Assembly: GCF_004348595.1 (NCBI RefSeq) | Contig: NZ_SMKD01000001.1 | Coordinates: forward strand, 1-64,000 | Direction of reading: 5' to 3' | DNA from: Micromonospora sp. KC723 | Lineage (GTDB): Bacteria; Actinomycetota; Actinomycetes; Mycobacteriales; Micromonosporaceae | DNA: 64,000 bases | Shown here: one piece after another, positions 23,889 through 53,439 of the stretch | Numbering within the stretch: position 1 is the stretch's first letter | How the letters are laid out: each line of letters opens with the position of its first letter | Notes under the pieces: model-generated | The model's input: only the letters and a program-made list of their open reading frames with translations | Told to the model about the DNA's origin: nothing | Databases searched by the model: none | Position numbers and translations under genes: made by a program

Positions 23889-25613
23889 TCAGATGCCGGC
23901 GGCGGTGTCGACCCGCTCGGGCGCGGCCGAGGCGAGGGGGACGGCCCCCTCCGGGGTGGCACGAGCGATCATCCGACCGTCGCCATGCCAGGCCTCCGGA
24001 CCGGCGTACTTCTCGCGAAGCTGACGCTTGAGCACCTTGCCGGTGTAACCGACCGGCAGGTCGGCCTCGCCACGGGCGACCTCGAGCAGGGTCACCGCAG
24101 GCTGGCCGGCGGCGACGAGTTGCTTGTTGATCCGGTTGAGCAGTTCCGGGGCCTCGGCGTTCGAGGCGTCGGAATCCGGACGAACCACCGCCACGGCGAC
24201 CGGCTCGCCGTCGTATCGCGCCGCGACCACCGCGCATTCAACGATCTCCGGCAACTCGGCGAGGATGACCTCCTCCATCAGGACGGAGTAACCGGTGCCA
24301 GCTGCGGTGGGTACCACGTCGACTGCCCGGTCTACCTGGTAGAACAGGTTCTCCTCGTCCTGGAACCCGACGTCTCCCGTGAGCCAGTAGCCAGCCAGAC
24401 GGCTACGGACCGTCGCGTCCGAGTCGTTCCAGTAGCCGGGGGTCAGGCTGGGACTGCGCACCCCCAGGAGCCCGTACTCGCCGACATCGGCCCGGGTGCC
24501 GTCCTCGCGCAGCACCGCGAACTCGGCCAGCGGATCCGGGGTGCCCATGCAGCGATCCCGCCGGGGCGTGTCGAGGGTACGCATCCGCACCATCAACCCC
24601 CAGCCCAGCTCGGTGCTGCCGAAGCGATCATAGAAGGCGGCTCGCGGCAGGTGCGGGCTGCGCAGGCTCAGGATGCGGCGCATGTGCCCCTCGTGCACCG
24701 CGTCGGCCATGCTGACCCAGCCGTCGACCGAGTCGACCGAGCCGGGCGCCAGGCGCTCCGCCGCCAGATCCGCATAGACATGAGCGAACGCGAGCACCAT
24801 CGTCGGCTGGTACCTGGCGATGGCGGCGGCCAGTTCGGGCCCGGTCGGATCGAACAACGGCACCAGCGGTGTGCCGGCCAGGATCGCGTACATGCTGTAA
24901 CCGATGAAGCCGGTGTGCGACTGCGGCTGGGCGGCCAGCATCAGCGAACCAGGCTGCTCGGTGAAGTGCGCCAGCCGGTACCGCGGACCGGCGAAGCTGC
25001 CGGCGTGCGTCTGGATCACTGGTTTGGGCTGCCCCGTGGTCCCCGAGGAGTGCAGGATCACCACCGGGTCCTCCGGCGCGTGCCGGAAGTAGGCATTCTC
25101 GGGCAGGGCCGCGGCGGGCGGCGCGGGCAGTTCCTCGGCGAGCTGGACCCAGCGCAGGCCGGACAGCGCGTCACCGAGCCGCTCGCTGCGCGCCCGGTCG
25201 GTGTACATCCCGACCGGGGCGGTCCGGCGCAGGTGCTCGGCTGCGACGGGCCGCGACATCCGGCTGTTCATCAGGACCGGGATCGCGCCGATCTGCGACA
25301 GCGCGTAGAAGTGCACCGCGTAGGCGAAGCTGTCCTCCAGGAAGACGGCGACCCGGTCCCGCGGACGCACGCCCTGCTCCCGATACCACACCGACCAGCT
25401 CTGCGCGAGCCGATCGAGGTCGCGCAGGCTCAGTTCGTCACGCGCCTGCCCCGTGGAGTCGACCACCGGCCGGCCGAGCCGCAGGAACGGGACGTCTGGC
25501 CGAGGGTGTACCGCCATCGCGTGACGCAGGACGTTGCCACCACCGAGTTGCTCGTTTCGCGCCAGGGTGAGCCGCAGGTCGGCTGGGAGGAGGGCATCAG
25601 CAAGCAGCGACAT
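23889..25613 (-). CDS. AMP-dependent acyl-CoA ligase / synthetase
   Basis: 574 residues, ANL superfamily. The P-loop VILHSSGTTGQPKPV is near 190, the adenylate-binding segment FYDRFGSTELGWG near 325, YWLTGDVGFQDE near 405, and the catalytic Lys motif GYTGKVLKRQLREKY near 535. It should activate a carboxylic acid as adenylate and load it on CoA or a carrier. The start overlaps the oxoamine synthase gene by 17 bp. As the last gene of a three-gene operon in the 4-aminophenylalanine cluster, it could supply the acyl-CoA that the synthase condenses with an amino acid. The acid is unknown. Confidence 0.85.
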   Translation of the reverse strand: MSLLADALLPADLRLTLARNEQLGGGNVLRHAMAVHPRPDVPFLRLGRPVVDSTGQARDELSLRDLDRLAQSWSVWYREQGVRPRDRVAVFLEDSFAYAVHFYALSQIGAIPVLMNSRMSRPVAAEHLRRTAPVGMYTDRARSERLGDALSGLRWVQLAEELPAPPAAALPENAYFRHAPEDPVVILHSSGTTGQPKPVIQTHAGSFAGPRYRLAHFTEQPGSLMLAAQPQSHTGFIGYSMYAILAGTPLVPLFDPTGPELAAAIARYQPTMVLAFAHVYADLAAERLAPGSVDSVDGWVSMADAVHEGHMRRILSLRSPHLPRAAFYDRFGSTELGWGLMVRMRTLDTPRRDRCMGTPDPLAEFAVLREDGTRADVGEYGLLGVRSPSLTPGYWNDSDATVRSRLAGYWLTGDVGFQDEENLFYQVDRAVDVVPTAAGTGYSVLMEEVILAELPEIVECAVVAARYDGEPVAVAVVRPDSDASNAEAPELLNRINKQLVAAGQPAVTLLEVARGEADLPVGYTGKVLKRQLREKYAGPEAWHGDGRMIARATPEGAVPLASAAPERVDTAAGI

Positions 25614-26910
25614 CGCTCACCTTCTCGGAGTCAGAAGAGGGGGAAGAAGACACCGGGCCCGACTCGGACCTGTCCTGGCCCAGCACCCGCGCCGCGAGGG
25701 CCAACTGGTCGGGCTCGTGCAGGCTGGACAACGCGAAGCGCAGGAGGCCGGTCCCGGCGGCCACGGTGGGATAGAACGCGGGGAGGATCAGGATCCCGGC
25801 GTCCCGGAGCCGCTCGGCGAGGGCGAAGGCGCTGTCCTCGTCGTCACAGTGCACACCCCGGATGGGGCACCGCAGGCCAGCGTTGACCAGGGTGCCCCCG
25901 GTCAACGCGTCGAAGCTGGCGGCGTTGGCCCAGAGCTGTTCCTGCCGGCGTGCGACCTCGCCGCTGAGGTGCAGCCGCGCCGCGGCCACCGTCGCGGCGA
26001 GCATCGGCACCGGCACCGACTGGCCGAAGACCAGGGGGTTGGCGAACTTGCGCAGCACCAGCATGTCCGCGTCGCCGCTGACCAGGACGAACCCGCCGAT
26101 CCCGCCGAACGCCTTGGACAACGAGCCGGTGATCAGCACTCCCGGCGGCAGCGCGCCGCCGAAGGCCTCGAACGCGTAGCCGGCTCCGTGCCGGCCGGTG
26201 ATCGAGGTGCCGTGGGCGTCGTCGACGTAGAGAATCCCGCCGTAGGGGGCCACCACCGAGTGCAGGTGGCGAACGTCCACCAGGCCGCCCATCGACCCGA
26301 CCCCGTCGACCAGCAGCACCGGCGTCCGGTCGGCGACGCTGGCCTCCCGCAGCTCGTGCGCCAGCCCGTCCGGGTCCCCGAGTTCGAACCGGCGTACCGG
26401 CCCGAGCTGTTCGAGCATGCCCCTGAGGACCTGCATGGACGCGTGCGCGGTCTTCTCCACCAAGAACGTCACGCCCCCCGGGGCGATCGGGTAGCCGGGC
26501 AGCGCGCCCGCGCCGAGCAGCGGGAGGGTGCCGAGATGGGTGCTGCTGACCGTGCCGAACACGACCGCCCGGCTGCCCGGGTAGATCTCCCCCAACAGTT
26601 GCTCCAGTTCGGCGAGATACACCGGTCGGGCGCGGTTACGCGCGATGGAGAAGTGCACCCCGAAGCGCCGCAGCGCCTCGTGCGCCGCGTCGACCAGTTC
26701 GGGATGCTGCTCCAGCCCGAGGTACGAGCAGGACACGAATTCGATGGCCGAGCTGCCGTCGGCGAGGGTCACCCGCTTGCCGGCACGTTCGGCGATGACG
26801 TGCCCGGTCAGTCCGCGGTCGAAGGCGCGGTCCAGCACGTCGGAGGTCTTGCTGATCCGCGCAGCCACCCAGTTTGTGGGCTCGGCCGCCGTGACGCTAG
26901 ATTGCCCCAC
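25597..26910 (-). CDS. Alpha-oxoamine synthase family PLP enzyme (KBL/BioF-like)
   Basis: 437 residues from a GTG at 26910 preceded by GGGAGCAGGA. Fold-type I PLP enzyme: VDDAHGTS holds the cofactor-binding Asp and His, and TGSLSKAFGG holds the Schiff-base Lys near 255. Conserved segments such as FVSCSYLGLEQHP and EKTAHASM place it with 2-amino-3-ketobutyrate ligase, AONS and CqsA. These enzymes condense an amino acid with an acyl-CoA, with decarboxylation, to an alpha-aminoketone. Neighbouring genes encode two acid-activating enzymes and a 4-aminophenylalanine pathway, so this is the likely bond-forming step of the cluster. It lies 19 bp after the PaaK-like gene. Confidence 0.85.
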   Translation of the reverse strand: MGQSSVTAAEPTNWVAARISKTSDVLDRAFDRGLTGHVIAERAGKRVTLADGSSAIEFVSCSYLGLEQHPELVDAAHEALRRFGVHFSIARNRARPVYLAELEQLLGEIYPGSRAVVFGTVSSTHLGTLPLLGAGALPGYPIAPGGVTFLVEKTAHASMQVLRGMLEQLGPVRRFELGDPDGLAHELREASVADRTPVLLVDGVGSMGGLVDVRHLHSVVAPYGGILYVDDAHGTSITGRHGAGYAFEAFGGALPPGVLITGSLSKAFGGIGGFVLVSGDADMLVLRKFANPLVFGQSVPVPMLAATVAAARLHLSGEVARRQEQLWANAASFDALTGGTLVNAGLRCPIRGVHCDDEDSAFALAERLRDAGILILPAFYPTVAAGTGLLRFALSSLHEPDQLALAARVLGQDRSESGPVSSSPSSDSEKVSDVAAC

Positions 26911-26929
26911 TCCTGCTCCCTTCGGTCGT

Positions 26930-28267
26930 TCAGAACCGCTGGTAGAAGACGGGCACCTTGCCCCGCTCGTTCTGGGCGAAGGCGCCCAGGTCGACGTACT
27001 CGACGGTGACGCTCGCGCTCCGTCGCCCGGTGAGGACGGCGTTCAGTTGGAAGTGCGCCCGAGCCTGCTCCAGGAAGGCCTCGGGTGTCGCGCCGGCCGG
27101 GACCGACGGAGCCAGCAGCAGCCGTACGGCGTACCGGGGGAAGTCCCACAGGATCTGTAGTTGACACTGACTGATGTCGCTGACACCCAGCGGTCGCAGT
27201 GCGGCGAGCAGCTGATCCGCCGAGATGGTCCAGACGTCGATGGTGGCGGACTGACCGGCGCGTCCCATGAGGGTGAGAAGCCGGGCCGCGCTGCCGCAGG
27301 CGCACGGGGCCGTCTCGATGCGTGCCCGGTCGCCGATCCGGTAGCGGAACAGCGCCATCCCGGTGTCCTTCAACGGGGTGATCAACAGCTCGCCGACCTC
27401 ACCGTCGGGCACCGGACGCCCGGTCTCCTGGTCGACCACCTCCACGATGACCGCGTCCTCGTGGATGTGGTGGGTGGCGCCCGACTGCCGTGCGCACTGG
27501 TAGCCGATCGGGCCGGTCTCGTTGGTGGAGTACGCGACCGATCGCACGGTGACGTCGGGCAGCGCCTCGGCAACCAGCCGTTCCCGCTCCTGGCCGATCG
27601 CCTCGCCCAGGTAGAGGAAGTGACGCAGCGACCGGAGCTGGTCGGCGGGGGTGCAGGTGAGCACCTCCGTGCCGTAGGCCGGGCTGGCGACGATGGTGTC
27701 CACCTGGTGTGCGGCGATGACGGCGGCGGTCTCCTCCGGGCGGGCGATGCTGCCCAGCGGGAAGGCCAGGGCACCGAGCCGCTCGGCGAGCCCCAGCACG
27801 AACATGAACGCACCGTTGAGGTTGCCGGGGTACATGCAGTTGGCCAGCCGCCGGGGCGGATCAGGCAACAGGGCCCGCAGGCCCCGCATGCCGAGAGTGT
27901 CGACCTGGTGCTTGAACTCCCACGAGTGGAACATGGTCTTGGCCTCGCCGGCGGTGCCGCTGGACCGCAGCACCATGCCCCCGTCCGGCCCGAGGAGAAA
28001 CTCGGTCGACCGGGGCGGCGAGCCGGCTGCCAGCGCCGCCGGGGTCAGGATCGGCATTCGGGGCAGGTCCGCCGGCGTACGCACCTCGGCCAGTTCCGGG
28101 TACCGGGCGCTGACCGCCTCGACCGCACGGGCGGCTGCCACGGTACGGGCGAAGTTCGCCGCCCGGAGGGCCTCGACCTCCTCCGCGCCCAGCACGTCCA
28201 GGTCGGATGCGAGGCGGACCCCCGCCGAGGCTGCCGGGACCGCCTCCGGAACAACCGTCGTGACCAT
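26930..28267 (-). CDS. PaaK-like phenylacetate-CoA ligase family enzyme
   Basis: 445 residues from the ATG at 28267, which follows GGGGGAGC; the in-frame extension to 28354 has no ribosome site. It has the glycine-rich adenylation loop MVLRSSGTAGEAKT near 110, AYSTNETGPIG near 250, and RYRIGDRARIE followed by PCACGS, resembling the zinc site of PaaK enzymes. Such enzymes activate aromatic acids (phenylacetate, hydroxyanthranilate, phenazine precursors). It is first in the minus-strand operon with the oxoamine synthase and acyl ligase, and divergent from the tyrosine-hydroxylase-like gene. An aromatic acid substrate is likely; its identity is unknown. Confidence 0.8.
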   Translation of the reverse strand: MVTTVVPEAVPAASAGVRLASDLDVLGAEEVEALRAANFARTVAAARAVEAVSARYPELAEVRTPADLPRMPILTPAALAAGSPPRSTEFLLGPDGGMVLRSSGTAGEAKTMFHSWEFKHQVDTLGMRGLRALLPDPPRRLANCMYPGNLNGAFMFVLGLAERLGALAFPLGSIARPEETAAVIAAHQVDTIVASPAYGTEVLTCTPADQLRSLRHFLYLGEAIGQERERLVAEALPDVTVRSVAYSTNETGPIGYQCARQSGATHHIHEDAVIVEVVDQETGRPVPDGEVGELLITPLKDTGMALFRYRIGDRARIETAPCACGSAARLLTLMGRAGQSATIDVWTISADQLLAALRPLGVSDISQCQLQILWDFPRYAVRLLLAPSVPAGATPEAFLEQARAHFQLNAVLTGRRSASVTVEYVDLGAFAQNERGKVPVFYQRF

Positions 28268-28772
28268 TCTGCTCCCCCGTAATCCCCGAACCGTCGGTGT
28301 CATCGGGTCTGCCCAGGCCCGACGTCGGACCAACAGTAATATGACGCCCGCCATGGATGACGAAAATCAGTGAGCGGATCAACCAGCGGCTCCGGAATTG
28401 CCGAGGGGCGGGCGGAGCCATCTGTGTATAACGGGGCCCCTGGCGTCGAGTCAAGGCCTTCGCGATCATTCCCACCGGCGCGCGATCATCGGAATTGATT
28501 GGCTTTCCGACCAATCAAACAACCGCACCACGACTGCCTGCGGCGGCACCGGGCAGGCGGCCCCACCAACCCTTGAGGTCTTGGCGCGCCCGCCGGCCCT
28601 GCTGTACGCTCCCGATGGTTTGCACCGAAATTGCCGCGAGTGCCGTCCGATACGACCCGGCGCACATTATTCGAGTGGTCTTATTGGTGACAGATTAACG
28701 CATGCTGATGTGCGTGCTCTTCTCGTACGTCCTGCGCGCACCGCTGTCACCAGTCGAGGAGGGACGCTGACC
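28268..28772. promoter_or_regulatory. Divergent promoter region with an 8-bp inverted repeat
   Basis: A 505-bp gap between the ligase operon (leftwards) and the hydroxylase-like gene (rightwards), lower in GC than its surroundings. TTGATTGG (28495-28502) and CCAATCAA (28511-28518) form a perfect inverted repeat with an 8-bp spacer, a likely operator. CGCGATCAT also occurs twice, 20 bp apart (28461 and 28481). No gene is evident. Confidence 0.55.
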
Positions 28773-29696
28773 GTGACGCTGCCCACCACCGCCGAACGGC
28801 GTCTGCCGGAATGGGAGTTCGGTGGCTACCCGTACGGCCTGATGCCGTTGACGCTGCCCGCGCCCGGACTGCGGTGGCTCTGCGGGGACATGAGTGGGGT
28901 GCTGCGTCAGCAGTCGCTGCTGGATGCCGACGCCGACGCTCCGCTGGATCCCGAGCCGGATTCGACCGACCAACTCCTGTGGTTCCGCTGGATCATCGGC
29001 AACCAGGCGTCGTCGGCGCTGTGGCAACTGCTCGACGACGAGTTGGGCCTGGTGCTCGGCGAGGAGCTGCCGACCGCCTGCCGTAACGCCGCGGCGCTGC
29101 TCGACGGCTACTCGGCACTGCTGATCTACGCCGGGGTGCCCACCCGGGAGGCCTACGCCCGGCTGATCCGCCCGGCGATGGCACTCCAGCACCGCTCCTT
29201 CTCCGGCCGCTGGGCTGTTGACTACGTCCCGGTCATGGCGAAGCTGCAGGCGCTGCGGGCGGCCTACCGGAGCCGACCGGCCCCGGCGGAGGTCGCCCGG
29301 ACGATCGAGGCGAGCCGGACCAACCACCGGGTGCATGTGGCCGTTGCCGCGAAACTCGTGCCGAGCGACGACTCGCTCCTGCGGGCGAATGACGGCCTGG
29401 CCCTGGGCAAGGCCACCGATGAGAACGTGGCTCTCTACGACGCCTTCTACAGCACCGCCCGGGCGGTGACCTCCCGGGAGCGGGTGGTGGAACAACTTCT
29501 CCAGCGGGTTCGCGCCATCAAGCGTGATCTACGCGTCAACGGTTTGTATCCTGACGGCTCCCCCAGTCAGGACGAACGGCCGGCGCACCTGTGGGAGACC
29601 AAGGTCGAGAACGTCGAGGTACGCGTTGAGGAACTGCTACACAAAGCCGCCACGGCGGCGGTCGCCGCACTGCGCAGCCACCCGGCATCGAGCTGA
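28773..29696 (+). CDS. Heme-dependent L-tyrosine 3-hydroxylase-like protein (LmbB2/Orf13 type)
   Basis: 307 residues from a GTG at 28773 preceded by GAGGAGGGA. From memory, the overall pattern (EWEFGGYPYGLMPLTLPAPG at the start, LWFRWIIGNQ near 69-78, RPAMALQHRSFSG near 133-145, and a C-terminal VRAIKRDLRVNGLYP) resembles the heme-histidyl tyrosine hydroxylases of lincomycin, anthramycin and related clusters. His140, His185 and His188 are candidate heme ligands. These enzymes use H2O2 or O2 to add a 3-hydroxyl to tyrosine. No extradiol dioxygenase is nearby, so the proline-forming branch of those pathways is absent. Here 4-aminophenylalanine or a related aromatic is a plausible substrate. Confidence 0.6.
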   Translation: MTLPTTAERRLPEWEFGGYPYGLMPLTLPAPGLRWLCGDMSGVLRQQSLLDADADAPLDPEPDSTDQLLWFRWIIGNQASSALWQLLDDELGLVLGEELPTACRNAAALLDGYSALLIYAGVPTREAYARLIRPAMALQHRSFSGRWAVDYVPVMAKLQALRAAYRSRPAPAEVARTIEASRTNHRVHVAVAAKLVPSDDSLLRANDGLALGKATDENVALYDAFYSTARAVTSRERVVEQLLQRVRAIKRDLRVNGLYPDGSPSQDERPAHLWETKVENVEVRVEELLHKAATAAVAALRSHPASS

Positions 29697-29789
29697 CGGG
29701 AGCTCACGACTGTCGGCGCCGCGCGTCGGACCACTCGACGCAGACGTGCGGAAATTCCACAAGTGTGCGGCGAGGAAAGGATTCGGCCG

Positions 29790-31070
29790 GTGAAGATTGG
29801 CATAGGCAAGTCTCTGGGCGCGTACCGGGAACTGCTGAAGATCCGCGGTGCTCCCGGCTTCGTCATCGCCGGCCTGATCGGCCGGTTTCCCATCTCGATG
29901 CGGGCGCTGGCCGCCATGCTCCTGGTGCTTGCCGCCACCGGCTCGTACGCCACCGCCGGCGCCATCGGCTCCGTGGTGACCCTCTCCAACGCGTTCGCGG
30001 TGCCGGCGCTGGGCCGCCTGTCCGACCGGCGCGGCCAACGCTGGCTGATCTTCACCGCGTTGATCGTCCATGCCGGCGGCCTGATCGCACTGGTCCTGTT
30101 GACCCGGCTGGGCGCCCCGCTGTGGACGCTCTTCGCCGCCGCCGCGGTGTTCGGCGCGTCCGGGCTACCCCTGGGCTCGCTGGTACGTGCCCGGTGGACG
30201 GCCCTGGTCGGCGGCACACCCCGGCAGTCCACGGCGTACGCCCTGGAGGCGTTCATCGACGACATCATCTACCTGACCGGGCCGGTCATCGTCACGCTGC
30301 TCGCGGGATACCTCGCGCCGACCGCCAGCATGCTGGTCATCCTCGGCATGGTGCTGGTCGGCTGGACCGCGCTCGCGCTGCAGCGTTCCACGCAACCCGA
30401 ACTGGCACCGGTCCCCGCCGGCCCGCGCAGGGGCGCGATCAGCGAGCCGGGGCTCCGGGCGCTGCTGCTGGTCTGCCTGGCGCTCGGCGCCTGGCTCGGG
30501 GCCAGCAACGTGGCTCTCGTCGCCTTCGCCGACGAGCAGGGCAACCGGAGTCTGGGCGGCATCCTGATCGGCCTGACGATCCTCGGCGGCATGATCGCCG
30601 GCCTGGTCTACGGCGGCATCACGTGGAACATCCCCCTGGTCCGGCGCCTGCTGGGCACGGCGGTGCTGCTGGGTGTGGGTACGCTGCCCCTGATCTTCGC
30701 GGCCTCTTTCTGGTGGATGGTGCCGTTCGCGGTGATCGCGGGCCTTGCCATCACGCCCACCTTGATCGGTATCTACTCCGTGCTGTCCAACGTCGTACCG
30801 AAGTCCTCGGTCACTGAGGGGTTCGCCTGGATCGCCTCGTCGATCGCGGTCGGCAGCTCCGCCGGCGTGGCCGTCTCCGGCTGGCTGGTCGAGCGCTTCG
30901 ACAGCCGTAGTGCCCTGATCTTCATGGCCGCCGCCGGGCTCCTGTCCCCCCTGGTGGTCGCTGTCAACGAGCGTCTGCTCGGCCGTACCCCGCACGCGGA
31001 GGTCGTGGCGACGGGTGCGCCTGACCGGGTGCCGGTGAAGGAAACGGCGGTCTCCCCCTCGGGGGAGTGA
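29790..31070 (+). CDS. MFS transporter
   Basis: 426 residues from a GTG at 29790 with AGGAAAGGA upstream. About twelve hydrophobic segments span the sequence, with LGRLSDRRGQRWLIF near 70-85 matching the MFS loop 2-3 motif. Length and layout suit drug/proton antiporters. Placed between the hydroxylase-like gene and the chorismate-branch genes, it probably exports the product and gives self-protection. The substrate is inferred from location only. Confidence 0.85.
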   Translation: MKIGIGKSLGAYRELLKIRGAPGFVIAGLIGRFPISMRALAAMLLVLAATGSYATAGAIGSVVTLSNAFAVPALGRLSDRRGQRWLIFTALIVHAGGLIALVLLTRLGAPLWTLFAAAAVFGASGLPLGSLVRARWTALVGGTPRQSTAYALEAFIDDIIYLTGPVIVTLLAGYLAPTASMLVILGMVLVGWTALALQRSTQPELAPVPAGPRRGAISEPGLRALLLVCLALGAWLGASNVALVAFADEQGNRSLGGILIGLTILGGMIAGLVYGGITWNIPLVRRLLGTAVLLGVGTLPLIFAASFWWMVPFAVIAGLAITPTLIGIYSVLSNVVPKSSVTEGFAWIASSIAVGSSAGVAVSGWLVERFDSRSALIFMAAAGLLSPLVVAVNERLLGRTPHAEVVATGAPDRVPVKETAVSPSGE

Positions 31071-32485: not shown

Positions 32486-36376
<3,891 letters not shown>

Positions 36377-46209: not shown

Positions 46210-46263
46210 TTGACACCCATTCGGCGGAAGCGCAATCTAATGGCACCCATGGGAGCGCTTCCA
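46210..46263 (+). promoter_or_regulatory. Promoter with CebR-like LacI-family operator
   Basis: TTGACA (46210-46215) is a good -35 element, and TCTAAT (46236-46241) a -10 candidate, though the 20-bp spacing is long. TGGGAGCGCTTCCA (46250-46263) differs at one position from the CebR consensus TGGGAGCGCTCCCA. GGAAGCGC (46226) and GCGCTTCC (46255) also form an inverted repeat. The site sits at the expected transcription start, 240 bp before the aminotransferase ATG, so a LacI-type repressor probably controls the cluster. The 390 bp before it hold no gene. Confidence 0.55.
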
Positions 46264-46502: not shown

Positions 46503-47756
46503 ATGACTTCTGCGGTGACTCAGACGCCATCGACAGCATTAAGTGGATACGTGGGCCAGGGAATCTACCTGCATGCCCAGGGAACGCGATACATCGACTG
46601 CGCCTCAGGAACGTTCAACCTTTCCCTGGGGTATTCCGCGAAGGAGGTCATAGCAGCCCTACACGAGCAACTGGACCGCTGCTCCCACCTCTCCTCGGAC
46701 TTCACGAGAAGCAAGTCGGCAGACATCTTCGAGTCGATGCGGGAGTTCCTTCCGGCCCACATCAAGTCCTTCTGGTTCCGAGACGTGACCGGATCCGGCG
46801 CCAACGAGGGCGCGATCCGGATCGCGCAGAAGGCCACCGGTAAGACCGACATCTTCTCGCTGTTCCTGTCGCATCACGGTCAGACCGTGGGGTCGACCGG
46901 CGTGTCCGGGAACGCATTCCGGCACCGGAGCTTCTCGCTCCCCTTCACCAACTCCGTCAAGATCCCCGCGCCCGACTGCGCGAACTGCTTCTACGCCCAG
47001 ACCCCCGACCGCTGCGGCATGCTCTGCGCGCAGCGATTGGAGGACTTCGTCGAGTACGCCTCCAGCGGCCGGGTGGCCGCCCTGATCGTCGAGCCGGTGC
47101 TCGGCAACGGCGGCAACATCGTGCCGCCCGACGGCTGGTTCGCCGCCGTCCGGGAGTCCTGCGACAAGCTGGGCGTCCTCATCATCGCCGACGAGGTGCA
47201 GACCGGCTTCGGCCGAACTGGGTCGTTCTTCGCCTCCACCGGATTCGCCGCGGACCTGCGGCCGGACCTCATCACCTTCGCCAAGGGGGCCGGCGGAGTA
47301 GGCATCCCCGTCGCCGGCGTGCTCATGCGCCCGGACCTTGACGTGCTCGAACCCTGGGAACACTCCACCACCTCCGGGGCGAACCCGCTCGCCCTGGTCG
47401 CTCTGGAGGAGACGATCAGATACATCAGGAACCACGACGTGCTGGCCAACGTGGTCGCCGTCTCGACGCCGCTGCTGCGCGGGCTCGGCGACCTCTCCCG
47501 CCGGTTCCGTTGCATGTCGAACGTCCGGGGGGTCGGCCTGATGCAGGCCTTCGACCTGCCCACCAGTCTCGACGTGCGGACCTTCATCGAGGTGGCGAAA
47601 CGGCATGGGTTGATCCTGCGCGGCAGCCGATACGGATTCGGCAGGACAGTCAAGGTCCGCCCCCCGCTGATCATCACCGAGGACGAGGTGGGCGAACTCC
47701 TCGTCCGCCTCAGCGACGCCCTGCGCGCGTACGAGAAGGAGATCCTCCAGTCATGA
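46503..47756 (+). CDS. Class III aminotransferase (GabT1-like, azasugar signature)
   Basis: 417 residues; AAAGGAG precedes the ATG at 46503, and the longer open frame upstream covers the leader hairpins without conserved sequence. Class III PLP features: DVTGSGANEGAIRIAQKATG, LIIADEVQTGFGRTGSFF with the cofactor Asp near 227, and the Schiff-base Lys in ITFAKGAGGVG near 260. A Cys cluster (CANCF to CGMLC) lies near 160-175. In Bacillus GabT1 aminates fructose 6-phosphate at C2 to start nojirimycin-type synthesis. The alcohol dehydrogenase and phosphatase in the same operon support that role here. A generic omega-amino acid aminotransferase is the alternative. Confidence 0.78.
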   Translation: MTSAVTQTPSTALSGYVGQGIYLHAQGTRYIDCASGTFNLSLGYSAKEVIAALHEQLDRCSHLSSDFTRSKSADIFESMREFLPAHIKSFWFRDVTGSGANEGAIRIAQKATGKTDIFSLFLSHHGQTVGSTGVSGNAFRHRSFSLPFTNSVKIPAPDCANCFYAQTPDRCGMLCAQRLEDFVEYASSGRVAALIVEPVLGNGGNIVPPDGWFAAVRESCDKLGVLIIADEVQTGFGRTGSFFASTGFAADLRPDLITFAKGAGGVGIPVAGVLMRPDLDVLEPWEHSTTSGANPLALVALEETIRYIRNHDVLANVVAVSTPLLRGLGDLSRRFRCMSNVRGVGLMQAFDLPTSLDVRTFIEVAKRHGLILRGSRYGFGRTVKVRPPLIITEDEVGELLVRLSDALRAYEKEILQS

Positions 47757-48817
47757 GAGCACTGACGTACCTCGGTCCGTGGAACGTCGAGCTCCGCGAG
47801 GTGCCCGACCTGCACGTGGTCGGCGACGACGACGTGGTGGTCGAGGTGAAGTTCTGCGGAATCTGCGGCACCGACCTCGGCATCGTCTCGGGCACCTATC
47901 CGGTGGCCGTCCCCGGCGTGACCCTCGGGCACGAGGCCAGCGGCGTCGTGGCCGAGATCGGCCCGGCCGTGACCGAAGTCAGGGTCGGGGACCGGGTGGT
48001 CATCAACCCGACGCCATTCTGTGGCCGCTGCCGTATGTGCCGGACCCAACGGATCAACCACTGCGTCAACAAGCACGGCACCGAGAGCGGGGTGAGTTAC
48101 GACGGCGCATTCGCCGGCCGGTACCGCACCACGTCCGCGTTCGTCCACGTCGTACCGGACCACATCAGCCTGGAGGCCGCAGCGCTGACCGAACCGCTCA
48201 GCTGCGTCCTGGCCGGCGTCCGGAAGATCCGACCGCCGTCGCTGTCCGCGTTCACCTACGTGTTCGGCGCCGGTCCCCTCGGTCTGCTGTACGCCTGGGC
48301 GCTCTCGCTGAGCGGCCTGACACCGGTCGTCGTCGAACGCTCACCGGCCCGGCTGGAGTTCGCGCGGGACCGGCTTCCCACCGGCACCCGGGCGTACGCC
48401 TCACTCGACGAGGCGCGGTCGGCGTTCTTCGGCGACCCGAAGGCCCCGCTGGACGTCGTCGTGGACACCACCTCGGTCATGCTGGAGCCGCTCTTTCCGG
48501 AGCTGGCCTGCGGCGGCACGTTCATGTCCATCGGCCTGAAGCGGCAGCGGGCGTCGATCGACACGATGCTGCTGGCCGACCGCAGCCTCTCCGTCATCGG
48601 TTCGATCGACTCCCTGCACGGCTCGTTCGTCGAGGCGTTCCATCTCGTCACCTCCGGCCGGATCCCGACCGGGCGCCTGGTGACCCACGTCCTGCCTCTG
48701 GACGACCACCGGAAGGGCTTCGCGGCGCTGGGCTGTGACATCGCCGGCCAGGCGATGGGATCGACCGACGAGGCGAGCTGCAAGGTCCTGCTGACCCCTG
48801 GAGACGGTGATGGTTGA
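47753..48817 (+). CDS. Zinc-dependent medium-chain alcohol dehydrogenase (GutB1-like)
   Basis: 354 residues; ATG overlaps the aminotransferase stop (ATGA). Catalytic zinc ligands in FCGICGTDLG and GHEASGVV, structural zinc site CGRCRMCRTQRINHC, and cofactor site YVFGAGPLGLLYAW near 165. Resembles sorbitol/threonine dehydrogenases. In azasugar pathways GutB1 oxidises the C6 hydroxyl of 2-amino-2-deoxymannitol, after which the amine closes the ring. Translational coupling to the aminotransferase supports a shared substrate. Confidence 0.82.
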   Translation: MRALTYLGPWNVELREVPDLHVVGDDDVVVEVKFCGICGTDLGIVSGTYPVAVPGVTLGHEASGVVAEIGPAVTEVRVGDRVVINPTPFCGRCRMCRTQRINHCVNKHGTESGVSYDGAFAGRYRTTSAFVHVVPDHISLEAAALTEPLSCVLAGVRKIRPPSLSAFTYVFGAGPLGLLYAWALSLSGLTPVVVERSPARLEFARDRLPTGTRAYASLDEARSAFFGDPKAPLDVVVDTTSVMLEPLFPELACGGTFMSIGLKRQRASIDTMLLADRSLSVIGSIDSLHGSFVEAFHLVTSGRIPTGRLVTHVLPLDDHRKGFAALGCDIAGQAMGSTDEASCKVLLTPGDGDG

Positions 48818-49964
48818 CCCGAAGATCAGCGTCGTCATCCCGTACCGGAACCGACTGGACAACCTGCGGATCGCGCTCGCGGCCCTGGCGGACCAGACCC
48901 TCGACGCGGGCGAGTTCGAGGTCGTCGTCGGCGTGCTGGAGCTCGACGACGAGTATCTGGCGCTGTGCCGCGAGTACGCCGACCGGCTCACTCTCGTCTC
49001 GGTGCTCGCGTCACGACCATGGCAGGTCGGGTATGCCCGGAACCTCGCCATCCGGCAGGCGGCCGGCGACGTGCTGGTGCTCATGGACGTCGACATGGCG
49101 CTGCCGTCGTGGTGCCTGGAGAACCTCTACGACCAGCACTTCGCATACGGGCAGCAGGTGTGCGTGGTCGGCCAGATGATCGACTACGACAACAACACCG
49201 GCGACGTCGTCGAGGTGGAGGTCAAGCCGTACGAGCACTACCGGAAGGTTCTCGACGACCTGGGGGCCGGCGATCCCGTCCAGGCGGATCCGCGCCTCGC
49301 CGCCCGGCACGTCATTCCCTGGTCTTTCGCCTGGACCGCGCTGGTAGCCCTGCCCCGAGTCCTGGTCACCCGCCATGACCTGCTCTTCGACCCCGGGTTC
49401 CACGGTTACGGCGTGGAGGACCTGGAGTGGGCCTACCGGGTGTGCCGGACCGCCACGCCGATCGTCATGGGCCGTGACTTCCTCGGCATACACCTGCCCC
49501 ACGTGCGTAGCGTCGCCGCGAACAGACGGACCGAGACGGCCAACTACCGGTACTTCCTGCGGAAGTGGCCGGGGACGGACGTCGAACTGGCGGGGGCGCT
49601 CGGTGACTTCGAGGCCAACGAGGCGTACCTCGACTTCCGCCGCGAGGTCGCCCGGGCTGCCGGTGCCGGCGCTTCCCTCGCCGTGGTGCGGGGTACGGTC
49701 GCCGGTGAACACCGCCTGGTGGTCGGGGTGACCGTCGACGCGCGGTCACGGTGGGACGATCCCACCGTCGCCGCGCTGCTGGGTCGCGACGCGGCTGTCG
49801 AGGTCCTGCCGATCGCCGGGGTCATGCTGCCGTACGACGACGACAGCGTGCGGCACTGCACGGTGCTTCCGCCGGCACTGCGGCTGACGGCCGCGTACCG
49901 GGACCGGGTCCTGGCCGAAGCACGCCGCGTCAGCGCGACGCCCCTCTCCCTCCCGGAGGGCTGA
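48810..49964 (+). CDS. Family 2 glycosyltransferase with galactosyltransferase-like C-terminal domain
   Basis: 384 residues from ATG 48810 (a GTG at 48807 is also possible); TGGAGAC lies upstream. GT-A fold: ISVVIPYRNRLDNLRIALAAL at the start, the metal-binding DxD-type segment VLMDVDMALP near 95, then a WAYRVCR region with GYGVEDLEW near 205, as in chondroitin-polymerase and GT27-like enzymes. No membrane segment. It sits between the dehydrogenase and phosphatase genes, so it probably glycosylates the azasugar or an intermediate. That would be unlike the minimal Bacillus pathway. Confidence 0.82.
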   Translation: MVDPKISVVIPYRNRLDNLRIALAALADQTLDAGEFEVVVGVLELDDEYLALCREYADRLTLVSVLASRPWQVGYARNLAIRQAAGDVLVLMDVDMALPSWCLENLYDQHFAYGQQVCVVGQMIDYDNNTGDVVEVEVKPYEHYRKVLDDLGAGDPVQADPRLAARHVIPWSFAWTALVALPRVLVTRHDLLFDPGFHGYGVEDLEWAYRVCRTATPIVMGRDFLGIHLPHVRSVAANRRTETANYRYFLRKWPGTDVELAGALGDFEANEAYLDFRREVARAAGAGASLAVVRGTVAGEHRLVVGVTVDARSRWDDPTVAALLGRDAAVEVLPIAGVMLPYDDDSVRHCTVLPPALRLTAAYRDRVLAEARRVSATPLSLPEG

Positions 49965-49965
49965 C

Positions 49966-50823
49966 GTGCCGACGGAACAGGAGCGCCAACTCGTCGACGT
50001 GGCCGTCGAGGCCGCCCACGCGGCCGGCGCGGTGCTGCTTCGCCAGGCCGGCGCGGTACGGCTGCTGCACCACAAGTCCACCGACACCGATCCCGTCACC
50101 GAGGCGGACCTGGCGGCGGAGCGGGCCGTCGTGGCGGTGCTCGGCCGGGCCAGGCCAGACGACGGCCTGGTGGGTGAGGAGGGTGCGACGCGCCCGAGCG
50201 GCACCGGACTGCGCTGGGTCGTCGACCCGATGGACGGCACCACCAACTACCTCTACGGTCTGCCGCACTATGCGGTGAGCATCGCCTGTGAGCGGCAGGT
50301 GGGGGCGGAACCCGACGGCCGACCCGCCTGGCGACCGGTCGTCGGCGTGGTCTACGACCCGGTGCTGACCGAGCTGTTCACCGCGATCCACGGCCAAGGC
50401 GCCCGGCTAGACGGGAAGCCGATCAGGGTCAACGACCCGGTGCCGCTGGCCACGGCGCTGGTCGCCACCGGCTTCGCGTACGACCCGACGTCCCGGGCCC
50501 GGCAGGCAAGCACGGTCGCGTCGCTGCTTCCCCGGGCCCGGGACATCCGCAGCCATGGCAGCGCCGCCCTCGCGCTGTGCTGGGTCGCCGCGGGCCGCTG
50601 GGACGCCTACTACGAGGACGAGCTGGCGACCTGGGACTGGGCTGCCGGCGCCCTCATCGCACGGGAGGCCGGCGCCGCGGTATCCCCGCTCAACACCGGC
50701 GTGCTGGCCGCCAGCCCCACCCTGCACCGCCACCTCGCCGGCCTCGTCACCCGCCCCGACCAGGTGACGACCGCGACCACCACCGGCATGACGGCCCCAC
50801 CGACACCCAGGAGGCAGGGATGA
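49966..50823 (+). CDS. Inositol monophosphatase family phosphatase (YktC1-like)
   Basis: 285 residues. Metal-binding motifs: DTDPVTEADLAAE and GEEGA, then WVVDPMDGTTNYLYGLPHYAVSIA near 90, and the C-terminal ELATWDWAAGALIAREAGA near 225. The family removes phosphate from inositol or sugar phosphates with Mg2+. In azasugar synthesis YktC1 dephosphorylates 2-amino-2-deoxymannitol 6-phosphate. The gene starts 1 bp after the glycosyltransferase stop, and its own stop overlaps the next ATG. Confidence 0.85.
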   Translation: MPTEQERQLVDVAVEAAHAAGAVLLRQAGAVRLLHHKSTDTDPVTEADLAAERAVVAVLGRARPDDGLVGEEGATRPSGTGLRWVVDPMDGTTNYLYGLPHYAVSIACERQVGAEPDGRPAWRPVVGVVYDPVLTELFTAIHGQGARLDGKPIRVNDPVPLATALVATGFAYDPTSRARQASTVASLLPRARDIRSHGSAALALCWVAAGRWDAYYEDELATWDWAAGALIAREAGAAVSPLNTGVLAASPTLHRHLAGLVTRPDQVTTATTTGMTAPPTPRRQG

Positions 50824-52445
50824 CCACCCTGAACCCCTACCGCGTCCGACAGGTCGCGGACCGCGATCCCCGCTACTTCCCGCTGCTCTTCGTGGCTTTC
50901 CTGGCCCTGGCCGCGATGTACGTCGTCTGGCGGACGGCGGTCGTCAACTGGGGCGTCTGGTACGGGCCGGTCGCCTGGCTGGCGGAGATCTTCGGCCTGA
51001 CCACGGCGATCATGTTCGTCGTCACCCTGCGCCGGAGCGCCCGTCCGGTGCCCCGGGCCGCCGGTGCGCCGAGGTCGGTTGACGTCCTGATTCCCACGGC
51101 CAACGAGCCGCTGTCCGTTCTGGAACCGACCGTCATCGGGGCCACCCGGCTGCGCGGTGTCCGCCGGGTGTTCGTCCTCGACGACGGCGACCGGGCCGAG
51201 GTACGCGAGATGGCCCGGCGGCTCGGCACGGAGTACCTGGCGAGGGCGGGCAACGAGGGCGCCAAGGCGGGAAACCTCAACCATGGCCTGACCGCGACCG
51301 ACGCCGAGTTCATCGTCACGCTCGACGCGGACCACGTGCCACTTCCCGGGTTCATCGAGCAGACCCTCGGCTACTTCGACGACCCGCGGGTCGGGTTCGT
51401 CCAGTCTCCGCAGTCGTTCTACAACACCGAGTCCTTCACGTTCCGGCACCGCCGGGGCAGGGCGGCCGGCTGGCACGAGCAGGGCATGTTCTACGGCGGC
51501 ATCCAACCCACCAAGAACAGCACCAACAGCGCGATCTACACGGGCACCTCGGCGATGCTGAGGCGCAGCGCGATCGACTCGGTCGGCGGCTTCGCGCCGG
51601 ACACCCCGACCGAGGACATCCACACCTCGTTGCGCCTGCACGCCCGGGGTTGGCGGTCGGTCTACCTGAGGATGCCGCTGGCCTACGGGCTGGAGGTGGA
51701 GAACCTGGAGGAGTACTACCGGACCCGACGTCGCTGGGCCGCGGGCAGCCTCCGCCTGCTGTTCCGGCACCCGGACTCCCCGCTGCGGGTGCGCGGGCTC
51801 AGCGCCTTCCAGCGGTTGAACTACCTCAGCGCGATGGTCACCCATCTACAGGGCCCGAACCGGGTGCTCTACCTGGTGGCACCGATCGCCGCGCTGATCA
51901 CCGGCGTACCGCCGGTGCACGGCCCGTATGCCTGGTACGGTTTCGCGTTCCTGCTGTTCACGGTGCTATCCATCTGGACCGTCGTGGTGTTCGGCCGGGG
52001 TCACTACCACCTGGTCCACAGCGAGGCCTTCGGCATCGCGGACACCCTGCCAATGATCACCGCCCTGGGCAGCCTGTTCTACCCGGATCGGTCGTTCGGA
52101 GTCAGCCGGAAACGGACCGGACGCACCGGCGGCGGCCGGCTGAAGGCCGCGTACCAGCTGTTCGCGGCGGTCAACCTGGCCGGCCTCGGACTCGCCGTGG
52201 TCCGGCTGGTCCGGGGCGAACACGTGGTCATCGCCGGCTGGTCGGCGGCCTTCCTGGCCCTCGGCACCGCGTACGTCCTGGTTTTCCTCGTGTCGTTGCA
52301 CCGGTACGAACGCCGGGCGGGGGCGCCGTCGTACATCCGGTTCACTCCCGAGCAGCTCTACCACCACGTCGTCGCGCTCTCGACCGATTCCGCGGCCGTC
52401 CGCTCGGTCCGCGCGGCCGAGCCCGAGCCGGTACCGACGCTCTAG
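50820..52445 (+). CDS. Cellulose-synthase-like membrane glycosyltransferase (GT2)
   Basis: 541 residues; ATGA overlap with the phosphatase gene. Two N-terminal membrane segments (about 20-42 and 52-72), a cytoplasmic GT2 domain, and four or five C-terminal segments (about 340-520). Processive GT2 motifs are present: FVLDDGD near 115, LDADH near 168, TED near 263, and RRRW near 302, corresponding to the D, DxD, TED and Q/RxxRW motifs. It lacks a PilZ domain. It should use a nucleotide sugar at the membrane, possibly making a short glucan or extending a glycosylated azasugar. Its inclusion in this operon is unusual. Confidence 0.85.
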   Translation: MTTLNPYRVRQVADRDPRYFPLLFVAFLALAAMYVVWRTAVVNWGVWYGPVAWLAEIFGLTTAIMFVVTLRRSARPVPRAAGAPRSVDVLIPTANEPLSVLEPTVIGATRLRGVRRVFVLDDGDRAEVREMARRLGTEYLARAGNEGAKAGNLNHGLTATDAEFIVTLDADHVPLPGFIEQTLGYFDDPRVGFVQSPQSFYNTESFTFRHRRGRAAGWHEQGMFYGGIQPTKNSTNSAIYTGTSAMLRRSAIDSVGGFAPDTPTEDIHTSLRLHARGWRSVYLRMPLAYGLEVENLEEYYRTRRRWAAGSLRLLFRHPDSPLRVRGLSAFQRLNYLSAMVTHLQGPNRVLYLVAPIAALITGVPPVHGPYAWYGFAFLLFTVLSIWTVVVFGRGHYHLVHSEAFGIADTLPMITALGSLFYPDRSFGVSRKRTGRTGGGRLKAAYQLFAAVNLAGLGLAVVRLVRGEHVVIAGWSAAFLALGTAYVLVFLVSLHRYERRAGAPSYIRFTPEQLYHHVVALSTDSAAVRSVRAAEPEPVPTL

Positions 52446-52566
52446 CTTCCTCTGCCGATCGGGCCGGCCATGCCGGCACCGCCCGACCGGCGTACCGCGT
52501 TCCGGCGCGGTGGCCGGCCCGGTCGGCGACCCATCACCACTTCATCCCGACGTGAGGACCCCTGTC

Positions 52567-53439
52567 ATGACGACCCTCGGTGCCGTGTACCTGCCCCAAC
52601 TGCCTCCAGAGCGGCTACGCGCCGTGGCCCGGGCGGCCGACGAGGCGGGCCTCGACGAACTCTGGCTGTGGGAGGACTGCTTTCTGAGCAGCGGCATCGC
52701 CAGCGCGGCGACAGCCCTGGCCTCGACCCACCGGTTGCGGGTGGGGATCGGGCTGCTGCCCGTGCCGCTCCGGAACGTCGCGTTGAGCGCGATGGAGGCG
52801 GCGACGCTGCACCGGCTCTTCCCGGGCCGGGTGCACATCGGCGTGGGGCACGGCGTCCAGGACTGGATGGGTCAGGTCGGCGCTCGGGTGGAATCGCCGC
52901 TGACCCTGCTGCGGGAGTACGTGACGGCGTTGCGCGGGCTGCTCGCCGGCGCACCGGTGACAGCGGCCGGCCGGTACGTCCGGCTGGACGAGGTGGCGCT
53001 GGACTGGCCGCCCGCGGGTCCGGCGCCGGTCCGGGTCGGCGCGGTTGGCGCGCGTACCCTGCGCCTGGCCGGTGAGGTGGCCGACGGCACGATCCTGACC
53101 GGCGGCACCACCCCGGAGCAGGTACGCGAGGCGCGCCGGTGGGTGGACGAGGGCCGTCGTACGGCGGGTCGGACCGACGATCATCCGATCACCGTCTACC
53201 TGCACGCCGCGACCGGGCCGGACGCCGACGCCCGGATGGAGAAAGAGCGGGTCCGCTGGGGGTACGGGTCGGCCGACGACCGGATGGTCACCGGCGACGC
53301 CCCGGCGATCGCCGGCCAGGTCCGGCGCTGGGCAGCGGCCGGCGCGGACACGGTGGTCCTGCAACCCACCCCGGACGACCCAGACCCCGAGGGTTTCGTC
53401 CGGTTCGTCGCCCGGGAGGTGCGTCCGTTGCTCGGCTGA
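52567..53439 (+). CDS. LLM class F420-dependent oxidoreductase
   Basis: 290 residues from the ATG at 52567 (GAGGA upstream). Luciferase-like TIM barrel: LGAVYLPQLPPERLRAVARAADEAGLDELWLWEDCF, LRVGIGLLPVPLRNVALSAMEAATLHRLFPGRVHIGVGHG and VGAVGARTLRLAGEVADGTIL. Actinobacterial members usually use coenzyme F420. It follows the glycosyltransferase by 121 bp in the same direction and could be the last gene of the cluster, adding a redox step to the product; this link is inference. Confidence 0.85.
   Translation: MTTLGAVYLPQLPPERLRAVARAADEAGLDELWLWEDCFLSSGIASAATALASTHRLRVGIGLLPVPLRNVALSAMEAATLHRLFPGRVHIGVGHGVQDWMGQVGARVESPLTLLREYVTALRGLLAGAPVTAAGRYVRLDEVALDWPPAGPAPVRVGAVGARTLRLAGEVADGTILTGGTTPEQVREARRWVDEGRRTAGRTDDHPITVYLHAATGPDADARMEKERVRWGYGSADDRMVTGDAPAIAGQVRRWAAAGADTVVLQPTPDDPDPEGFVRFVAREVRPLLG

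Follow-up and report, generated by a model that had tools for sequence, protein, structure and literature searches.

A six-gene operon of Micromonospora sp. KC723 that probably directs synthesis of a sugar-capped azasugar, with a cellulase-type operator upstream

Azasugars are natural blockers of sugar-cutting enzymes, and an operon that probably makes a sugar-capped member of this group was found in the soil actinobacterium Micromonospora sp. KC723. The analyzed stretch, termed here the window, comprises the first 64,000 nucleotides of contig NZ_SMKD01000001.1 (assembly GCF_004348595.1), and the operon occupies positions 46503-53439, with all six genes on the + strand. Two of the genes belong to a known branch of azasugar enzymes, glycosyltransferase genes are embedded in the same run, and the operator in front of the first gene is of the type that precedes secreted cellulase genes. 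The joint reading, in which an azasugar-glycoside operon is controlled together with cellulase genes, is favoured here with moderate confidence.

The operon begins with a class III aminotransferase of the azasugar type (AT; 46503..47756; PF00202, 259 bits; motif SGNAFRHRSFSLPFTNSVKIPAPDCANC), followed by a zinc-dependent dehydrogenase of the Paenibacillus polymyxa GutB1 branch, predicted to act on aminopolyols (DH; 47753..48817; PF08240 with 90 bits, above cut-off, while PF00107 and PF16912 match under their cut-offs). Then there is a GT2 glycosyltransferase (GT2; 48810..49964, with an alternative GTG start at 48807; PF00535, DVD and GYGVED motifs) and an inositol-monophosphatase-type enzyme, presumed to be an aminopolyol-phosphate phosphatase (IMPase; 49966..50823; PF00459, 195 bits). 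The last two genes encode a membrane glycosyltransferase (GT) with a cellulose-synthase-like core (CesA-like GT; 50820..52445; PF13641) and a luciferase-like, Mer-like oxidoreductase (LLM; 52567..53439; PF00296, 156 bits). Overlaps of 4 bp join AT to DH and IMPase to CesA-like GT, an overlap of 8 bp joins DH to GT2, GT2 and IMPase are spaced by 1 bp, and a gap of 121 bp precedes LLM. The initial annotation, made from the sequence letters, had described these genes as one run at the same coordinates, and this description is confirmed. Key residues are intact in AT (lysine K261 and D230), in both zinc sites of DH (C35, H60, E61, E147 and C90, C93, C96, C104), in the metal motifs of IMPase (GEEG, DPMDGTTN, WDWAAG) and in the DVD motif of GT2. 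The linkage of the genes goes beyond chance, since their order is kept in other genera of the family amid largely different flanks.

The distribution of the operon was established by searching 301 sampled Micromonosporaceae genomes with GT2, relatives of the operon being defined by an adjoining AT-DH pair. The operon, with conserved gene order, is present in 15 of these genomes; every sampled GT2 of at least 56% identity adjoins AT-DH and five GT2s at 45-50% identity do not. The window's genus and Actinoplanes (g29) have the full set AT-DH-GT2-IMPase-CesA-LLM, which is rearranged on one contig of a further genus (g33); another genus (g6) carries a reduced set AT-DH-GT2-CesA in four operons. 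Among sampled genomes of its own genus the window's genome is the only one with the operon, and the flanks are unrelated across genomes, except among groups of close relatives; this rarity together with the unrelated flanks indicates horizontal spread. Of 84,980 genomes scanned for AT relatives, close named ones come from Clostridium, Eubacterium and Streptomyces (62-65% identity) and from Xenorhabdus (~50%), and AT-DH accompanied by GT2 occurs outside the family in Streptomyces (L061, L139, L176) and Eubacterium (L062). A class-wide AT search at the strict threshold of E 1e-140 returned the window's own gene alone and was uninformative.

The azasugar chemistry is regarded as highly probable from the sequences of AT and DH. 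For azasugar aminotransferases the consensus SGNXFRXXXFPNXXXXXXXLXVPXPYCXRC was proposed (Beal and Horenstein, 2021; PMC8382821). The window AT reads SGNAFR...F...IPAPDCANC, which is retained in all 15 operon ATs; relative to the published consensus PN is absent, the spacer is 2 residues shorter and PYC.RC is changed to PDC.NC. With 46% identity to the P. polymyxa enzyme and 43% to the Bacillus GabT1 type, it passes the threshold of about 40% that delimits the GabT1 group. In the maximum-likelihood tree of AT the window is placed with three-gene clusters (3GCs) of Clostridium, Eubacterium, Xenorhabdus, Erwinia and P. polymyxa (support 99/95), in which AT is followed by DH and a HAD phosphatase, and the DH tree gives the same clade (support 100/100); gabT1-yktC1-gutB1 loci of Bacillus and Streptomyces fall in the opposite half of both trees. 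Across 32 loci the AT and DH distance matrices give a correlation of r = 0.91, compared with at most 0.39 in 2000 permutations. By phylogeny, AT and DH belong to the P. polymyxa/Xenorhabdus/Clostridium azasugar branch, and neither is placed among unrelated amino-acid or inositol families. For a GutB1 of P. polymyxa, oxidation of 2-amino-2-deoxymannitol with mannojirimycin as the product was demonstrated in vitro (PMC10904899); the P. polymyxa DH used here as a reference is a plasmid gene annotated as 2-amino-2-deoxy-D-mannitol dehydrogenase, which may differ from the tested GutB1 protein. The partly retained AT signature and the grouping of AT and DH with azasugar clusters back the azasugar reading of the initial annotation. 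The enzymes it had named, GabT1, GutB1 and YktC1 of Bacillus, had to be given up, as orthology is ruled out by low identities (43% for AT, 28% between DH and Bacillus GutB1), by the separate clades in both trees and by a BLAST E of about 1e-4 between the window IMPase and YktC1.

The PF00459 phosphatase gene lies one gene past the DH-GT2 pair, within the span of no more than three open reading frames used to define a 3GC. Instead of being YktC1, it is an inositol-monophosphatase type that substitutes for the HAD phosphatase of the branch, and it is 62% identical to the IMPase of the Streptomyces AT-DH-GT2 locus L176. Depending on lineage, the phosphatase slot holds IMPase, HAD or YktC1, that is, three unrelated or barely related types, as expected if AT, phosphatase and DH form a working unit. 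The g6 operons contain no local phosphatase and their genomes have other IMPase homologues only, so that, if the model holds, this step has to rely there on a phosphatase from outside the operon. An extra 235-aa gene of these operons was considered as a HAD substitute and rejected, having no Pfam match. In a different cluster (L052, L054, L055), GT2 and IMPase genes about 50% identical to those of the window are likewise paired, together with a class III AT (28%) and thymidine-phosphorylase-like, dioxygenase-like and non-ribosomal-peptide-synthetase-type genes.

Is the azasugar further decorated? GT2, the nearest solved relatives of which are chondroitin synthases, adjoins AT-DH in Micromonosporaceae, Streptomyces and Eubacterium, and this linkage makes a glycosylated product the simplest reading, which on the basis of gene content seems rather probable. 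Glycosylation, as proposed in the initial annotation, has good backing from gene linkage in the case of GT2 and weaker backing in that of CesA-like GT. The latter, a multi-spanning membrane protein, is restricted to Micromonosporaceae among the loci compared. It keeps the D, DAD and TED motifs, with TRRRW at the QxxRW position in all operon copies; a domain search gave no PilZ match, and the TIGR03030 match, with 277 bits, stays below the cut-off of 699. Because of the TRRRW replacement and the missing PilZ match the protein is not classed as a cellulose synthase, and the transfer of one or a few sugars would be just as likely as polymerisation. Predicted structures of both transferases were discarded, with mean pLDDT of 45 for GT2 and 32 for CesA-like GT, obtained from alignments of 4 and 2 rows. 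In the literature searched, which left most subscription journals outside its scope, no glycosyltransferase was described in an azasugar cluster, and nothing was found on gene clusters for gualamycin and azasugar glycosides. On a linear Streptomyces plasmid (L139, 9340-11927) a starch-synthase-like GT and a nucleotide-sugar epimerase precede AT-DH-GT2, hinting at a different sugar decoration there.

LLM is the sixth gene of the full operons and is absent from 12 tested genomes of the same genus that do not have the operon. Its orthologue in the g6 genomes is present and unlinked to the operon, and a relative of 63-64% identity occurs in 2 of 8 operon-free Actinoplanes genomes. The closest relatives are F420-dependent Mer enzymes, and the use of F420 by LLM is a guess from this similarity; the protein is accessory and its role is uncertain.

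Upstream of the operon, at 46250..46263 of the + strand, there is a 14-bp operator of the CebR type (LacI family), TGGGAGCGCTTCCA, that is one mismatch away from the palindrome TGGGAGCGCTCCCA, the CebR (cellobiose repressor) box of Streptomyces cellulase genes (PMC4898821; PMC5332605). Read on the opposite strand, TGGGAGCGCTTCCA is identical to the CebR box that is listed for bglC of S. scabies. When at most two mismatches within 450 bp upstream of the operon were allowed, a box was found before 12 of the 15 operons, compared to 0.05 expected in total from shuffled regions; the 15 operons are not independent cases, as close relatives share the box, and at least six lineages carry it. The window's genome contains 7 exact copies of the pattern TGGGAGCGCTYCCA (reversed control, 0); leaving aside the one at the azasugar operon and two unclear sites, they precede the cellulase genes of GH48 (two boxes), GH9 and GH6. 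In one Actinoplanes genome (G237) 13 of the 20 other box sites precede genes of plant-polysaccharide enzymes, among them cellulases, xylanases and beta-glucosidase, i.e., GH12, GH10 (2), GH6 (2), GH3-CBM2, GH5 (3), GH9 (2), an AA10 lytic polysaccharide monooxygenase and a BNR-repeat/CBM2 protein, and one further site precedes a CBM2-fn3 protein. Since the box is common to the operon and to cellulase genes, the operon is very probably expressed together with the cellulolytic system, and it probably is a member of the cellulase regulon. The initial annotation did not mention the operator, which is the strongest clue to the biological role of the operon. In the same literature no link between CebR and azasugars was found, both words occurring together only in a barley malting study.

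Just upstream of the operator a promoter-like element, TTGACA-17-CAATCT (46210..46238, + strand), is suggested by conservation among relatives, as other operons have TTGAC...CACTGT at the equivalent position; a scan for consensus promoters left the element of the window unscored. Two motifs, TTAACCGGTTCA (L040-L047 and L053) and GTGAYTMAGCGCACA (L041, L042, L046-L051, L053), are conserved upstream of AT in relatives and absent from the window, and they are possible sites of additional regulators. Two boxes of the window's genome are located elsewhere than before cellulases (L214 5239-5252 and L213 4901-4914, contigs C235 and C226), one of them inside a LuxR-type regulator gene.

From these elements we infer the following scheme. 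AT would introduce an amino group at C2 of a ketose phosphate, for which fructose 6-phosphate is the probable candidate. The IMPase-type phosphatase would strip the phosphate from the aminated product and DH would oxidise the freed terminal hydroxyl; the aminoaldehyde formed in this way would cyclise to an azasugar of the nojirimycin or mannojirimycin type. GT2 would then attach a sugar to the azasugar, in Micromonosporaceae the cellulose-synthase-like membrane transferase may add another sugar or aid export, and LLM may tune the redox state, e.g., at C1. A CebR-like repressor of the LacI family would block the operon until relieved by cello-oligosaccharides, jointly with the secreted cellulases. 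A speculative extension, which is conceivable and in our view rather doubtful, is that the product mimics a cello-oligosaccharide in which the CesA-like enzyme has linked a nojirimycin-type azasugar to at least one glucose unit. If so, it could be released with the cellulases and block beta-glucosidases or cellobiohydrolases of competitors, or protect freed cellobiose during cellulose feeding.

Several findings weigh against the azasugar-glycoside operon as proposed. AT relatives (42-48% identity) occur also in clusters without DH (L170, L171, L188, L189), thus membership in the AT family alone is no proof of azasugar chemistry, and for actinobacterial members of the branch both fructose 6-phosphate as substrate and an azasugar as product are predicted from relatedness. 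The four g6 operons lack IMPase and LLM, hence neither is strictly required beside the core. The operator is missing from the Actinoplanes operons L044 and L045 and degenerate in L039, and the Streptomyces relatives have neither CesA-like GT nor the box. Finally, no gene of the window's genome was recognised as CebR, and no search aimed at it was made.

Other explanations were weighed against the same evidence. The presence of two transferases, one multi-spanning and cellulose-synthase-like, and of related GT2s in other pathways without AT-DH would also suit an operon in which AT, phosphatase and DH yield an uncyclised amino sugar or aminopolyol, while the transferases build an oligosaccharide, glycolipid or exopolysaccharide with CesA-like GT as the polymerising enzyme. 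This is considered unlikely: AT and DH group with clusters that use free aminopolyols and spontaneous cyclisation (PMC8382821), the operon contains no flippase, polymerase partner, PilZ or BcsB-like gene, its QxxRW motif is replaced, and the Streptomyces and Eubacterium versions have GT2 without CesA-like GT. Slightly less probable still is a plain azasugar cluster for mannojirimycin or deoxynojirimycin, with the transferases and LLM as neighbours of separate roles. The closest HAD-type clusters (Clostridium, Xenorhabdus, Erwinia) indeed lack GT genes, and their products are presumably free azasugars; however, GT2 stands beside AT-DH in three Streptomyces loci, in Eubacterium and in 15 of 15 Micromonosporaceae operons, where genes overlap and flanks differ.

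The family includes acarbose producers (Actinoplanes), which was counted in favour of a C7N aminocyclitol of the validamycin or acarbose type, with AT acting like ValM. ValM does lie in the GabT1 similarity cluster, with 40% identity, but ValN is only 23% similar to GutB1 (PMC8382821) and the window DH falls among the GutB1-type enzymes of P. polymyxa. As the scanned neighbourhood of the operon contains no gene for a sugar-phosphate cyclase, the aminocyclitol pathway was rejected and is thought to be most improbable. It also seems very unlikely, if marginally less so, that AT has another substrate and that the operon is no azasugar pathway at all. GabT1-family ATs without DH or phosphatase are known from Bacillales and Streptomyces clusters (L170, L171, L188, L189), yet these sit in the other half of the tree, and the window AT travels with DH, as the matrix correlation indicates, and with a phosphatase across three phyla. 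The four clusters just named, common to Bacillales and Streptomyces and headed by their GabT1-like ATs in the absence of a dehydrogenase, also encode a protein that has a HIGH motif (MQPTPNGRMHIGHG) like that of class I tRNA synthetases.

Azasugar clusters in this family are not new, as a published survey lists five Micromonospora hits among putative azasugar producers (PMC8382821); new are the branch assignment, the conserved transferases and the cellulase-type operator. The HAD-branch 3GCs (AT-GutB1-HAD of P. polymyxa; Xenorhabdus, Erwinia, Clostridium) are of the same clade (AT 46-64%, DH 43-61%) and share with the window the AT-DH order and a phosphatase nearby. The window differs from them by IMPase in place of HAD, by two added transferases and LLM, by the CebR-type operator upstream, and by the lack of an MFS transporter and of DUF1349. 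The gabT1-yktC1-gutB1 clusters of Bacillus and Streptomyces, which make 1-deoxynojirimycin, are alike in the three predicted activities, and their AT is a distant relative (43-46%) with a similar signature, whereas the DH is 28-35% identical, the phosphatase is not YktC1 and the gene order is another. A further group is formed by the Streptomyces AT-DH-GT2 clusters (sp. NBC_00715 plasmid L139, S. afghaniensis L061, and L176; AT 64-71%, DH 70-73%, GT2 55-58%), of which L176 has the adjoining IMPase (62%) and an LLM-like gene (45%). They contain DUF1349, with a MATE exporter in L139 and L061, in place of CesA-like GT, and no CebR-type box was found upstream of them. The Streptomyces CebR regulon has the same 14-bp operator before secreted cellulases and a specialised-metabolite locus, as CebR also controls thaxtomin genes (PMC4898821; PMC5332605); here the specialised metabolite is a predicted azasugar glycoside and the host is one of the Micromonosporaceae. 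A DUF1349 protein accompanies azasugar clusters of Eubacterium, Xenorhabdus, Paenibacillus, Erwinia and Streptomyces (L062, L063, L064, L139, L140, L141, L176, L061/L192), not those of Micromonosporaceae, and it is possibly a missing pathway step or a means of self-protection.

What azasugars do in nature has still to be worked out, according to Beal and Horenstein (2021; PMC8382821). Through the operator that it has in common with secreted cellulases, one group of azasugar operons is connected with feeding on cellulose; this suggests cellobiose as an inducer and predicts which enzymes are to be inhibited. Production during the digestion of plant cellulose, as the operator suggests, would be a testable answer to what azasugars are for, and cultivable actinobacteria such as Actinoplanes utahensis NBRC 13244 are available for the purpose. 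Enzymes that attach sugars to azasugars would moreover be useful for glycosidase inhibitors with built-in selectivity.

Elsewhere in the window, at 32896-36376, genes for a chorismate mutase, a chorismate-binding/glutamine-amidotransferase fusion and a prephenate-dehydrogenase-like protein lie in a row and resemble a papABC set for p-aminophenylalanine. Genes of the AMP-binding, class I aminotransferase and MFS types are found close by (23889-31070), and all of these may form a separate biosynthetic cluster.

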